Shown here: positions 55,221-62,757 of the stretch, in pieces
How positions within the stretch are numbered: position 1 is the first letter of the stretch
How the letters are laid out: each line of letters opens with the position of its first letter
NCBI RefSeq assembly: GCF_003583405.1
Contig: NZ_QXEC01000010.1
Coordinates: 62,001-126,000 of the forward strand
Length of the DNA: 64,000 bases
Source of the DNA: Micromonospora radicis
Lineage (GTDB): Bacteria > Actinomycetota > Actinomycetes > Mycobacteriales > Micromonosporaceae
Direction: 5' to 3'
Translations under genes and position numbers: made by a program
The notes under the pieces: model-generated
Seen by the model: only the letters and a program-made list of their open reading frames with translations
The model's database searches: none
What the model was told of the DNA's origin: nothing

Positions 55221-55304
55221 GATGTCCATGTATCGATTTCCTGCTGGAGCGCAGGGAGACGGGAACGACCGCACCCGCCGGCCGAACAACCCGCGGGCGA
55301 TCCG

Positions 55305-56243
55305 TCAGCACGGCGAGGAGGGAGCCGCCTTGCCGTGCAGGATCCGGTACCCGTACGCGGGGTCGACTGACAACTCGTACCGGATGCGCCACCGCGTGCA
55401 GATCTCCTCTTCCCGCCCCTTCGGCCCGTAGCCCGGTGCCTGCTCGCTCCGGAAGGTGACCTCTGCCCACAGTGCCCCGCGCCGGTCGGCGTCCCGGACG
55501 GCACGCAACACGATGTCCGAGTCCCGAGTAGTCGCCAATGCCAGACCGAACCGCTCGACCGCCTCCTCGTTGCGAGGGTCGAGCACCTTGCCCGCCGGGT
55601 CGAACAGCGCCGCCGCCTGGCGATGATCTCCGTTGTTGATGCCTCCGAAGTAGCTGTCGAACATCGCCGCGACATCGGCGGCACGCGGGTCAGACAGGGC
55701 GGACTCGACGATGGTGACCAGCCCCACGGCGACCGGCATCGAAACAGTGGGCTCGGACGAGGAAGACGGCAGTTCGCCAGCGTCCGCGCCCGGCGTCGGC
55801 TCGCCGACCGGCAGCGAGGCCACGCCACCGGACGCCGCCTGGCCGACCTGCATCTCGTCGCCGCCCTTGTCGTCGCCGTCGAGCAGCAGGAGACCGAACG
55901 CGCCACCAGCGACGACGACCACGACGACCAGAGCCAGCGTACGCGCGAGGCTGATCCCACCCGGTCCGCCACTACCGTCCGACGCAACAGGCGACGGGAC
56001 GTCCGGGATCAGGGCGTCCGCAGTGTCGCCGACAATCGACGCGCCGCTCTTCGGCGCGCCCGGGCGCCCGGCAACTGGCTCCTGTGGCGCGGCGGGCGGC
56101 GCAACGGCGTGCCGTTCCGGCCGGGCGGCCGCGACAGGGCCGGCGTCAAGCGACGATCCGGGCAATCCCGCCTGGCAGATTCCACAGAGGGTCGCCGCAC
56201 TGTCGTTCTTGAATCCGCACTCCGGGCACTCCGCGTTCGGCAC
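55305..56243 (-). CDS. Zinc-ribbon single-pass membrane protein of unknown function
   Basis: A 312-aa protein. The N-terminus has a four-cysteine ribbon (Cys6, Cys9, Cys20, Cys23 in CPECGFKND and LCGIC), followed by a Pro/Ala-rich linker, one membrane helix (about 100-122) and an acidic extracytoplasmic region. The C-terminal domain (MFDSYFGGINNGDHRQAAALFDP then VTFRSEQAPGYGP) looks like an NTF2-like or sensor fold. GTG 56243 with GGAGGGAGC upstream was preferred to earlier codons. It is divergent from the four-TM protein. I do not recognise a named family. Confidence 0.75.
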   Translation of the reverse strand: MPNAECPECGFKNDSAATLCGICQAGLPGSSLDAGPVAAARPERHAVAPPAAPQEPVAGRPGAPKSGASIVGDTADALIPDVPSPVASDGSGGPGGISLARTLALVVVVVVAGGAFGLLLLDGDDKGGDEMQVGQAASGGVASLPVGEPTPGADAGELPSSSSEPTVSMPVAVGLVTIVESALSDPRAADVAAMFDSYFGGINNGDHRQAAALFDPAGKVLDPRNEEAVERFGLALATTRDSDIVLRAVRDADRRGALWAEVTFRSEQAPGYGPKGREEEICTRWRIRYELSVDPAYGYRILHGKAAPSSPC

Positions 56244-56535
56244 AGACTGCTCCCTCCGTATCGGAACTGACGATTGATTCGCGGCTCCGAGTGGACCCCA
56301 GGGAGCCCGATGACGCAACCCGCCGATGAGTCCGACCCGCTTTTACCCAACCCGCCAGCCAGTCCCCAATGATCAATACGAACAACGGTCCGACCGATCC
56401 CCGCAACTGGCCAAGCGGGCCAACTGAACGAACTCACCCCGGTGGCCGAACTCCCACGAACGGGCCATGTCGGCCGACCCGGACATCTTCTAGCGTCGAC
56501 GGACCGACTCACACCGCCATCGATCTGGTAGGGAT
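56244..56535. promoter_or_regulatory. Divergent intergenic region of the accessory island
   Basis: About 290 bases of lower GC than the neighbours separate the zinc-ribbon gene from the four-TM gene. TAGCGT at 56491-56496 could be a -10 for the plus strand, with GGTAGGGAT as ribosome site just before ATG 56536. No palindromic operator was recognised. Confidence 0.35.
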
Positions 56536-58320
56536 ATGACGAACACAACGGGAACTGACCGGAATCCGACAGAAGAGCAATTCTTCTTCACCCACGATGT
56601 ACCCGGCGCCGGGAACCGTCCATCGCGGATGTCACCGACCACCCGCTACCTGTGCGGCGCGGCATATTCCAACCACGACTTCGCGGAGGAGGTGATCGCA
56701 GAACTGGTCGAGAACGGCCGGCGGGCCGTCGTGCCGGCCATCGGGTACGACCTGGGGCCGGTCCTTCGGCACTGCTATCGGGCTCGGCAGCTCTGGTTCG
56801 GCCAGAATCTGATCATCACCGTCATCCTGTTCCTCGGTGTCATCCTCGCCTTCGCCTCCACCGCGACGCTGCTACTGTTCGCGCTCGCCGTCGTCGGCTT
56901 CAGTCACCTGCTCAACAGTCCGGCCAGGTCCAACTGGCGCATCGCGATTCTGATCGGCGTCATCCTGCTACTCGTCCTCATCGCGCCGGCTCTGCTGCAG
57001 TTGGTCGCGTCTGTTGCCCCCGACTCGCCCCTGCTGCCGGGCGACGACGGCCCGTCGATGACCGCGGTGATCGGCTGGGCGGTCGGGCTCGCACTGGCGG
57101 TACTCGGCACCATCGCGGCAACTCGACGAACGGTGTTGCGCACGCTGACCCAGGATCTCGCGCCCGAGCGGAAGCCAGCGGACCTGCCGAGCGCACCGGC
57201 CGACCGCCTACTGGCACGGCATCGCGTCGAAACCGTGGAGGAAGCACAGCACGGCAACATCGTGCTGCACTCCGGGCCCGATCCCTTCCTCGGTGCTGGC
57301 CGGGTCACCCACGCCTGGTCCATGGCGCTGGAGTTGCGCCGCGACAACGCCGCCGGACAATCCGCGGAGCGGGCCGCCGACGATCGTGTGGCGGTCGATC
57401 CGGTTGCCCTCAACCGGCACGTCAAGCGTTGCCTGGCCGCGCTGGCCGGCACCGACCTCCCGCCACACGAACGCCTCGCCGGGCTCGCATTGCGCGACCA
57501 GATCATGGCTGCTGGTACCCGGTGGCGGAAGTATCCCTTGATCGACCAGGAGTTTCGGCTGCCGTATCCGTACGCGACACCGCAGGCGATGGAGGCGATC
57601 ATCCGCGCGCCGCAGACCAGCGCCCGACATTTCCTGCGAGCCACCGTCGGCGCAGAAAACCGCGAGGTCGTCGAGGACAAGGGCACCACCATCATGCCGG
57701 CCGAGTACCAGAACATCGTCGTCTCCACCTTCACCCACATCGCAGTCGAGGGTGGAATGCTCTACGTCGAGAACGTCTCCACCGTCCTGGGCCCACTACG
57801 CCAGGAGTTCCTCGACATCGACCAGTACGCTCCCGGCGACGAGAACGGCAGCGAACCGCTGTTGCAGGCGTTGCGTACCTTTCCGGGCAGCACCCTGCTC
57901 GCGCCGGTGCGTCTACTCCAGGCAATCAGTCGGGCGTTCTCCGTCAGCCGGGCCATGGGGCGCGCCGAGCGCGACACCGACAGCCAACCGGTGTACGACT
58001 TCGGCGCGCGTGCCGAGGCGCGCCAACTGGCCTCCGCGCCTCGCCCGGTCACCTACCTGCAGCGGCTGGACGCGGAGAAGTACAGCAAGCTGATGGAGCG
58101 GCGCATCAGCGAGGCGATCATCGGCTACCTACGCAACAACGGAATTGACACCGCCGAGTACGAGACCCGGATGAACGTCTTCAACAACAACGGGGTGTTC
58201 ATCAGAGGTGACAACCAGGGGGCCGCGGCCGCCGGCACCGGCGCCCATGCCCTGCTCAATCAGAACACGCCGAACCAGCGAAAGGACGGACAGCGTGCCG
58301 GAGCCGGAGCCCAGAAATAA
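56536..58320 (+). CDS. Four-helix membrane protein with C-terminal Asn/Gly motif (accessory island)
   Basis: A 594-aa protein of unknown family. A soluble N-terminus with CGAAYSNHDFAEEVIAELV precedes membrane helices at about 91-108, 110-127, 135-158 and 176-196. A large cytoplasmic region follows (HRVETVEEAQHGNIVLHSG, RWRKYPLIDQEFRLPYPYATPQAMEAII, ISEAIIGYLRNNGID). The tail at about 550-577 carries NNNGVFIRGDNQGAAAAG, closely like the N-terminus of the next protein. The 3' end overlaps that gene by 26 bases. Base use is less GC-biased than in flanking genes. Possibly a signalling or defence component; not established. Confidence 0.72.
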   Translation: MTNTTGTDRNPTEEQFFFTHDVPGAGNRPSRMSPTTRYLCGAAYSNHDFAEEVIAELVENGRRAVVPAIGYDLGPVLRHCYRARQLWFGQNLIITVILFLGVILAFASTATLLLFALAVVGFSHLLNSPARSNWRIAILIGVILLLVLIAPALLQLVASVAPDSPLLPGDDGPSMTAVIGWAVGLALAVLGTIAATRRTVLRTLTQDLAPERKPADLPSAPADRLLARHRVETVEEAQHGNIVLHSGPDPFLGAGRVTHAWSMALELRRDNAAGQSAERAADDRVAVDPVALNRHVKRCLAALAGTDLPPHERLAGLALRDQIMAAGTRWRKYPLIDQEFRLPYPYATPQAMEAIIRAPQTSARHFLRATVGAENREVVEDKGTTIMPAEYQNIVVSTFTHIAVEGGMLYVENVSTVLGPLRQEFLDIDQYAPGDENGSEPLLQALRTFPGSTLLAPVRLLQAISRAFSVSRAMGRAERDTDSQPVYDFGARAEARQLASAPRPVTYLQRLDAEKYSKLMERRISEAIIGYLRNNGIDTAEYETRMNVFNNNGVFIRGDNQGAAAAGTGAHALLNQNTPNQRKDGQRAGAGAQK

Positions 58321-58666
58321 CTACGGCGTCTACGTACACGGGAACCAGACCGGAGCCGCGGCGGTCAACGGGGATGCGATCGTGTACCAACAGGTGCCCA
58401 ACAACGACCCAGCCGAACTGGCCCGCATCCTGGATCAACTCCGGACGATCCGTAGCCTGATAGAGGCGAACCGTTCGGCACTGCCGGAGGCGGACCTGGC
58501 GATCCGCGATGTCGACCGGATTGCAGACCTGCTCCAGGCCGAACAACTCGACCGCACGAGCATCAAGGCCGGCATGGACCGGCTGTTGCATCGAATGGGG
58601 GCGGCCGGCAGCCTGGCCGGAGGCATGATCGCTCTCCATCAGCTCGTCACGGGCTTCCTGGGCTGA
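58295..58666 (+). CDS. Small helical protein sharing an Asn/Gly motif with the upstream membrane protein
   Basis: A 123-aa protein. Residues 8-33 read NNYGVYVHGNQTGAAAVNG and onward, matching the C-terminal tail motif of the preceding protein in pattern: NNxGV(F/Y)(I/V)xG, then Q and GAAA. After this come two or three amphipathic helices (LARILDQLRTIRSLIEAN; IADLLQAEQLDRTSIKAGMDRLL) and a hydrophobic C-terminal segment. GTG 58295 follows GAAAGGACGGACAG and lies inside the upstream gene, so the two are translationally coupled. The motif is of the kind proposed for amyloid-like signalling partners; function is inferred only. Confidence 0.72.
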   Translation: MPEPEPRNNYGVYVHGNQTGAAAVNGDAIVYQQVPNNDPAELARILDQLRTIRSLIEANRSALPEADLAIRDVDRIADLLQAEQLDRTSIKAGMDRLLHRMGAAGSLAGGMIALHQLVTGFLG

Positions 58667-58770
58667 ACACGACGCGTTCAGCTTCGTCGTAGCCTGCCCG
58701 CCGGGCTCCAGATCAACACGTTCCCCGACCTGGACCCGGCGGACGGCGCCGCACGACGTAGCCTCCGACC

Positions 58771-61938: not shown

Positions 61939-62757
61939 TCACTCGGCCTGGGCGGCCAGTTCGCGGGCCCGGTCGCGGGCGGCTTCGAGGGCGGCCAGCA
62001 GGGCGGCGCGTACGCCGTGGTTCTCCAGCTCGCGCACGGCGGAGATGGTGGTGCCGGCGGGCGAGGTGACCGCCTCGCGCAGCTTGACCGGATGCTCGCC
62101 GGAGTCGCGCAGCATCACCGCCGAGCCGATCGCGGTCTGCACGATCAGGTCGTGCGCCACCTGGCGGGGCAGGCCGAGCAGGATGCCGGCGTCGGTCATC
62201 GCCTCGACCAGCAGGTAGAAGTACGCGGGGCCGGAGCCGGACAGCGCGGTCACCGCGTCCTGCTGGCTCTCCGGTACCCGGATGGTGGCGCCCAGCGGCT
62301 TGAACATCTCCTCGGCCAGGGCCAGGTGCTCGCCGGTGGCGTGCGCCCCGGCGGAGATGGCGGTCATCGCCTGGTCCACCAGGGCGGGCGTGTTGGTCAT
62401 CACCCGGACCACCGGGGTGCCCTCAGGCAGCCGGCGGCTGAAGAAGCTGCTGGGCAGCCCGGCGCAGAGGGAGATGACCAGCTTGCCGGTGGGTACCTTC
62501 GGGCCGATCTCGTCGAGCAGGGCGGCGGCGTCCTGCGGCTTGACCGAGACGGCGAGCACGTCGGCCTCGTCGACGGCGGTGGGGTTGTCGACCACCCGTA
62601 CCCCGTAGCGGGTGGCGAGTTCCTCGGCGCGCGCCGGCCGGCGGGCGGTGGCCAGCAACCGGTCGGCCGGCCAGCCCGAGCGCAGCAGACCGGAGAGCAT
62701 CAACTCGCCGATCTTGCCCGCGCCGATCACCGCGACGGTGTGCACCCCGGTTGACAC
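61939..62757 (-). CDS. proC: Pyrroline-5-carboxylate reductase
   Basis: A 272-aa NAD(P)H-dependent last enzyme of proline synthesis. It has a Rossmann start VAVIGAGKIGELML, AVSVKPQ, VRVMTNTPALV, then SGSGPAYFYLLVEAMTDAG and REAVTSPAGTTISAVRELE, the proline-binding signature. GTG 62757 with GGGGGG upstream is the start. It lies downstream of pfk behind a hairpin. Confidence 0.95.
   Translation of the reverse strand: MSTGVHTVAVIGAGKIGELMLSGLLRSGWPADRLLATARRPARAEELATRYGVRVVDNPTAVDEADVLAVSVKPQDAAALLDEIGPKVPTGKLVISLCAGLPSSFFSRRLPEGTPVVRVMTNTPALVDQAMTAISAGAHATGEHLALAEEMFKPLGATIRVPESQQDAVTALSGSGPAYFYLLVEAMTDAGILLGLPRQVAHDLIVQTAIGSAVMLRDSGEHPVKLREAVTSPAGTTISAVRELENHGVRAALLAALEAARDRARELAAQAE

Follow-up and report, generated by a model that had tools for sequence, protein, structure and literature searches.

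The 64,000-nucleotide window analysed here (positions 62,001 to 126,000 of contig NZ_QXEC01000010.1, Micromonospora radicis, assembly GCF_003583405.1) contains two overlapping genes that encode a receptor-like membrane protein, P0001, and a small partner, P0002, with nearly the same short tag at the C-terminus of the former and the N-terminus of the latter. Judged by sequence comparison across homologous loci, the tag is shared by receptor and adjacent partner, covaries locus by locus, is insulated within genomes and accompanies swapped effectors. We consider it rather probable that P0001 acts as a membrane sensor and uses a private, homotypic, amyloid-like tag to template its cognate effector, with cell death or dormancy as the outcome, most plausibly as an antiphage response.

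P0001 (594 residues, ATG start, positions 56536–58320 of the window, forward strand) lacks a convincing Pfam match and ends in NNNGVFIRGDNQGAAAA; P0002 (123 residues, GTG start, 58295–58666, forward strand) begins with NNYGVYVHGNQTGAAA. Local alignment under BLOSUM62 pairs residues 550–580 of P0001 (NNNGVFIRGDNQGAAAAGTGAHALLNQNTPN; 58183–58275, forward strand), modelled with low confidence as unstructured, with residues 8–36 of P0002 (NNYGVYVHGNQTGAAAVNGDAIVYQQVPN; 58316–58402, forward strand) at a score of 60, a value not attained when the P0002 N-terminus was shuffled 20,000 times (mean 21.6, maximum 55). When the P0001 tail was compared with 5,028 six-frame segments of the window, those overlapping the tail set aside, the small gene came first and the next best scored 49. 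Conversely, the P0002 N-terminus found its best match in P0001 only in the C-terminal tail. The DNA coding for the two motifs lies in separate, non-overlapping stretches. The initial annotation, made from the letters alone, had described a four-transmembrane protein and a small helical protein that share a motif and whose genes overlap by 26 bases. The shared motif is confirmed by the alignment, the overlap follows from the coordinates, the membrane helices are backed by hydropathy and by the structural model, and the small helical protein corresponds to a modelled four-helix bundle at residues 39–122.

Receptor homologues were found in 16 of 101 genomes by single-sequence search and, by profile search, in 105 of 300 genomes of the family and 37 of 246 genomes of the class. 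The 42 named receptor loci belong to genera including Micromonospora, Actinoplanes, Streptomyces, Nonomuraea and Kineosporia, with one Scytonema metagenome-assembled genome (MAG). The family search supplied nearly all of a set of 113 non-redundant pairs, for which the downstream partner was picked by coding bias, blind to the motif, and each receptor tail was scored against every partner N-terminus; two partial receptors and three without a partner under the coding-bias rule were dropped. Covariation of the motifs in adjacent genes, which the initial annotation had proposed as a check, strongly supports its motif-based pairing of the membrane protein with an adjacent effector: cognate pairs averaged 70.0 against 27.8 for non-cognate pairs, a result reached in 0 of 10,000 permutations. 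Scores of at least 45 were obtained for 101 of the 113 cognates versus 833 of 12,656 non-cognate combinations. Restricting the set to receptors less than 45% identical (42 pairs) gave means of 63.7 and 26.2, with the cognate first in 31 cases and among the top three in 36, and the class-wide sample of 26 scored pairs gave 71.0 and 33.2, with the cognate first in 16; neither result was matched in 10,000 permutations. The class sample was kept redundant; L154 and L159 had no partner, three rows stopped short of the receptor profile end, and the tag-free L163 was retained among the 26. The pair of the cyanobacterial Scytonema MAG (L190) is likewise matched, with a score of 66.

The arrangement of receptor C-terminus and partner N-terminus holds for 101 of the 113 pairs, in which the tag averages 26.7 residues; further copies at other receptor ends were sought only in P0001. 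Receptors about 40–48% identical to that of the window have tags that differ from it, and in each case the partner matches (15 listed, all scoring at least 45). At similar distance from the window receptor stand the tags GDVNGSFAMGTGATA (L053), SGGTFNGPTAFG (L116) and GDNYGAAAAG (L065, L078), each repeated in altered form in its own partner, and L007 and its partner read GGQQAF...QHN and GGMQAF...QHN. The literal NNxGV(F/Y) motif of the initial annotation is consequently not a conserved feature: the tag varies from locus to locus, with both genes changing together. In aligned tags, 55% of residues are common to both partners, and fourfold-degenerate sites within identical residues match at 0.51 versus 0.45 by chance, a near-chance level that points to selection on the protein rather than recent copying of DNA. 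In 14 genomes with two or three pairs each, a set assembled by hand, the cognate scored highest for all 32 receptors, so the tags look insulated within the cell. Not counted among the 32 were G258, whose receptors stand in tandem and include a partnerless one, and G174, where L121 is tag-free; the cognate nonetheless scored highest for both G174 receptors. As separate observations, the receptor paralogues L163 and L164, from another genus, have neither a visible tag nor a matching partner and constitute a natural tag-free control, and L109 comprises two tandem receptors with almost identical tags and no recognizable effector downstream.

The AlphaFold2 model of P0001 (mean predicted local distance difference test 86, predicted template modelling score 0.84) comprises two short N-terminal helices, four long helices predicted to span the membrane (residues 73–207; 56752–57156, forward strand), an alpha/beta soluble domain (225–552; 57208–58191, forward strand) and an unstructured tail from about residue 553. 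The modelled long helices (73–104, 106–127, 133–160 and 175–207) are accompanied by hydrophobic stretches at 85–130, 130–164 and 172–196. Because there are four membrane helices, both ends of the protein should lie on one side of the membrane, and an arginine-rich stretch past the fourth helix suggests that this side is the cytoplasm, where the soluble domain is presumed to reside. Searches of P0001 against Pfam, NCBIfam and PADLOC yielded nothing convincing, and in a scan of 76 receptors no family was matched by more than three of them (best E-value 0.0036). No Pfam match to an NB-ARC or NACHT STAND ATPase, the hallmark searched for as NLR, was obtained in P0001 or among the families listed for the 76 receptors at E ≤ 0.1; by predicted domain content, the receptor is not an NLR. 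Fold searches with the soluble domain reached a best Foldseek E-value of 0.047 and a best VIA Z of 7.5, to KA1, with START/Bet v 1 rows at no more than 7.2, a range also seen without relationship; the START/Bet v 1-like hint is, alone, below a meaningful level. Against PDB sequences, the receptor profile matched a designed coiled coil (E-value 6e-5) as well as membrane proteins, across the region of the membrane helices. Three plasmid records resemble the receptor, all partially and at less than 30% identity.

The 113 partners divide into 72 small and 41 large proteins, the latter classified by Pfam searches on examples and by similarity to those examples. Among the large partners are 32 of the phosphorylase superfamily, two CAP12-type TIR proteins, two CHAT proteins and one HEAT-like protein, whose match lies just under the Pfam cut-off and whose tag is unmatched; the four without assignment are probably not true partners. 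The Pfam domains represented are PNP_UDP_1, PNP combined with a bacterial Death-like domain, CAP12-PCTIR_TIR and CHAT, and PADLOC effector models (PN-superfamily effector, PycTIR, SAVED_CHAT) match six enzyme examples from sister loci. At least two phosphorylase partners (L016, L055) carry a C-terminal bacterial Death-like domain 3 (bDLD3) in addition to the N-terminal tag, which places two adaptor types on one effector. These assignments describe the partners as interchangeable effectors of predicted immune type: a four-helix protein, phosphorylase-superfamily enzymes, CAP12-type TIR and CHAT. For the TIR partners of L134 and L135, matches to the PADLOC candidate models PDC-S35 were observed in addition to PycTIR. 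Members of the phosphorylase and TIR effector families destroy nucleotides, and a suicidal or dormancy response is favoured because of these effector types.

The model of P0002 shows an unstructured, low-confidence N-terminus that carries the motif, followed by the four-helix bundle at residues 39–122 (58409–58660, forward strand). This bundle is distantly DUF5955-like, its match to PF19380 (13.7 bits, E-value 0.086) lying under the Pfam gathering cut-off of 27.1 bits; DUF5955 matches at E ≤ 1 were found in 31 of 46 small partners scanned, the best at 2e-23. The maximal hydropathy of P0002 is 1.27, which denotes no membrane-grade helix, and a value of 1.6 was reached by 22 of the 72 small partners. 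The profile of the small protein retrieved coiled coils, chemoreceptors and designed bundles among PDB sequences, and fold searches with the bundle returned many unrelated four-helix proteins at Z 7–11, which for bundles may reflect only a common arrangement. Its role is the least certain step of the proposal, and it could serve as a scaffold just as well as a toxin, since a membrane-grade helix is mostly absent and since in L230 a related bundle follows a phosphorylase-like domain and a tag within one fused protein. The DUF5955 core protein (L207–L213), present in 7 of 118 class genomes, all of one genus, shares the four-helix domain with the small partners described here; it differs in being by eye tag-free and without a receptor within the fetched flanks, and P0002 itself falls under the family cut-off. 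We found no paper naming DUF5955 in the open-access literature. The initial annotation had stated that a small protein occurring widely without the membrane protein and without the motif would count against it; the DUF5955 core comes close to such a case, and the motif-bearing members beside receptors are left untouched by it.

Two further arrangements were observed around this domain. In L241 and L243 (genomes G463 and G373, of one genus), the upstream protein consists of repeats, by eye right-handed beta-helix-like, and its terminal tag, in L241 NNYYGPVFHQAVHHAQLAWNNSTVVQ, matches the N-terminal end of the DUF5955-like partner; from sequence, this protein looks like a second receptor type on the same tag logic. 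In L230, and also in L226, one protein combines a phosphorylase-like domain with a tag and a DUF5955-like bundle, and the protein next to L230, by eye membrane-bound, bears a similar tag (VGVQ-G-VHG) near its N-terminus, at an alignment score of 55 that is noise level. The modules seem to be permuted at these two loci.

Relative to the receptor body, the tag is enriched in N (7.1-fold), G (2.3-fold) and Q (1.9-fold) and depleted in L, R, E, P, C and W; the known sigma amyloid motif is described as likewise N/Q-rich. Near-identical tags on both partners argue for homotypic contact, and a self-templating stack fits better than a hetero-contact given this near-identity, the unstructured models and the N/G/Q-rich, charge-poor composition. 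Lack of structure, composition and gene order together make amyloid signalling the best-fitting model. In this mechanism, the flexible C-terminal tag of P0001 would be held silent as long as the sensor is at rest; after triggering, clustering of the tags would nucleate a homotypic cross-beta, amyloid-like stack, which would template the N-terminal counterpart on P0002, the product of the overlapping gene. The helical bundle of P0002, concentrated and polymerized at the membrane, would act as executioner or as a scaffold for one, its place being taken at sister loci by a phosphorylase-superfamily, TIR or CHAT domain, and the likely outcome would be cell death or dormancy, most plausibly directed against phage. 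That the two proteins touch, that the tag is an amyloid and that a trigger sets off toxicity, cell death and phage defence are all steps that we infer.

Several results weigh against this model. The tags of the window resemble four published amyloid signalling peptides only at shuffle level, which also holds for the one published BASS3 peptide compared; across all tags, scores of at least 35 to the fungal phosphorylase motif PUASM were obtained for 9 of 202 motifs versus 65 of 10,100 shuffles, slightly above chance. In the full set of 113 pairs, the cognate ranked first in only 52 (5 of them tied), as close relatives share tags, and the cognate of the window tail ranked 7th among all 113, because relatives carry a nearly identical tag, and 2nd among the 42 divergent pairs. 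Twelve of the 113 family pairs scored below 45, including both CHAT pairs, at 34 and 35, and several with probably miscalled partners. Among small-domain loci in class genomes, a receptor stood next door in only 11 of 29; of the other 18, eight resemble the stand-alone DUF5955 core, five have no assignment, L241 and L243 clearly match their different upstream protein (scores 105 and 89), and L226, L230 and L233 give matches at scan noise level (44–55, with unrelated stretches reaching up to 57). Pore formation by P0002 is doubtful because it has no membrane-grade helix. PADLOC assigned no family to P0001 or P0002, none of the phage records matched P0001, and the immediate neighbours of the pair, a chitinase gene, a zinc-ribbon gene and a glutathione peroxidase gene, include no defence genes.

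The covariation and insulation of the tags require only specific homotypic recognition, and the same wiring could accordingly operate through an ordinary stoichiometric beta contact, by strand addition or a small beta-solenoid, in a fixed membrane-tethered complex without amyloid. The shuffle-level likeness of the window tags to published amyloid peptides would suit such a contact, but near-identical tags, unstructured single-chain models and N/G/Q-rich, charge-poor composition favour the self-templating stack, and we regard the stoichiometric complex as unlikely, though deserving of weight. A real wiring that filamentous actinomycetes use for envelope-stress or developmental signalling, rather than for phage defence or cell death, is also a minority possibility. 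It would accord with a membrane receptor that offers only a weak hint of a lipid-binding fold, a third gene encoding a zinc-ribbon membrane protein, the lack of defence genes directly flanking the window copy and the motif-less paralogues L163 and L164; however, the effectors found beside the same receptor are of immune type (PNP, TIR, CHAT and PNP-Death), and the distribution is patchy, with the window locus accessory.

That chance, low complexity or a recent duplication of local DNA explains the resemblance is scarcely credible: the motifs are indeed Gly/Asn-rich, but none of the 20,000 shuffles reached the observed score, non-cognate controls of the same composition score far lower and synonymous sites are near chance, and on these three grounds we rejected it. 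A toxic membrane protein held in check by P0002 as an inhibitor or chaperone docked through the tag would be compatible with the gene overlap and with G019, where the receptor is degenerate while the small gene related to P0002 remains open. This arrangement appears highly doubtful, however, as PNP, TIR or CHAT enzymes replace the small protein elsewhere, the PNP and TIR enzymes with a matched tag, which marks its position as an effector slot.

The amyloid-like tag model invites comparison with three known groups of systems, for which we draw on parts of the cited papers. The bacterial amyloid signalling sequences BASS1–10 occur in two-gene NLR/BELL clusters, with motifs of 20–40 residues and many families at the NLR N-terminus and the BELL C-terminus; they are found mainly in filamentous actinobacteria and cyanobacteria, and their effectors are small helical or, less often, CHAT or TIR proteins (PMC8086366, PMC7889193, PMC12261475). 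The present pairs share with these portrayals the adjacent or overlapping genes, a short motif common to receptor and effector, the many motif families, the bacterial groups that mainly carry them, a small helical effector and an occasional CHAT or TIR; they differ in that the receptor is a four-transmembrane protein in which no NLR domain was found, whereas the BASS receptor is an NLR, and in that the tag occupies the receptor C-terminus and effector N-terminus. BELL is described as a helical bundle with a hydrophobic helix, whereas P0002 is a bundle without a membrane-grade helix, a comparison made by description. Fungal NLR-linked amyloid motifs include HET-s, sigma and PUASM, the last with PNP_UDP effectors (PMC9815663); the likeness here extends, as far as those excerpts go, to homotypic transfer from a receptor to the effector encoded next door and to tagged phosphorylase-superfamily effectors, and the differences lie in the prokaryotic setting, the membrane receptor, the N-terminal effector tag and the weak resemblance to PUASM. 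Effector-associated domains (EAD) and bacterial Death-like adaptors, in the portions compared (PMC8195603), likewise place the same adaptor on receptor and effector, and some PNP partners here also carry bDLD3; their adaptor is a folded domain, whereas a short flexible tag fills that role here. The open-access literature searched yielded no membrane receptor of this type, and subscription work may already mention it. The pair would work like an amyloid signalling pair and is not BASS as defined, being set apart by its receptor class and swapped termini.

The pair belongs to an interval (55239–58756) that also includes a divergent gene for a zinc-ribbon membrane protein, likely the third gene of the cassette (55305–56318, reverse strand, start possibly GTG near 56255), in which a single hydrophobic segment and, behind it, a C-terminal domain can be made out by eye. 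In the window, the flanks (chitinase side and glutathione peroxidase) are 3,518 nucleotides apart; in 60 other genomes of the genus, counted by hand, they adjoin in 52, at distances of 8–177 nucleotides, lie 1.5 or 3.8 kb apart in two and are not both listed in six. The accessory origin put forward in the initial annotation is supported by these sister genomes with adjacent flanks, and its less GC-biased base use is confirmed by a GC content of 0.663 for the segment against a median of 0.737, within the lowest 0.8% of same-length windows. A zinc-ribbon-type gene lies beside 30 of 72 small-partner pairs versus 0 of 41 large-partner pairs (downstream testable in 18 of 41), 29 of 31 such genes are on the strand opposite the receptor, and a scan of 84 segments of the window detected the window's own copy alone. 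By these gene-content comparisons, the cassette is accessory and its putative third gene recurrent. Another genome of this genus, G019, retains a receptor in decay and a small gene, related and still open, just past glutathione peroxidase. Across species, the interval between chitinase and glutathione peroxidase was seen to hold differing inserts (in G036/L254 by eye an ABC-transporter ATPase gene; also in G016/L255), and it may be an insertion hotspot.

Whether these loci represent an undescribed, non-NLR class of transmembrane immune receptors in filamentous bacteria, with diversifying private amyloid-like address tags, orthogonal circuits per cell and plug-in effectors (four-helix, phosphorylase, TIR, caspase-like), is in our judgement evenly balanced. 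If so, bacterial amyloid-type signal transfer would not be tied to NLRs, and its carrier would be a membrane receptor family present in about a third of the family genomes sampled (105 of 300). Natural sets of matched and mismatched tags within single genomes would then allow a direct test of homotypic tag specificity, which matters for RHIM, HET-s and BASS signalling too, and the family would provide a large new set of receptor/effector pairs to try against phage.

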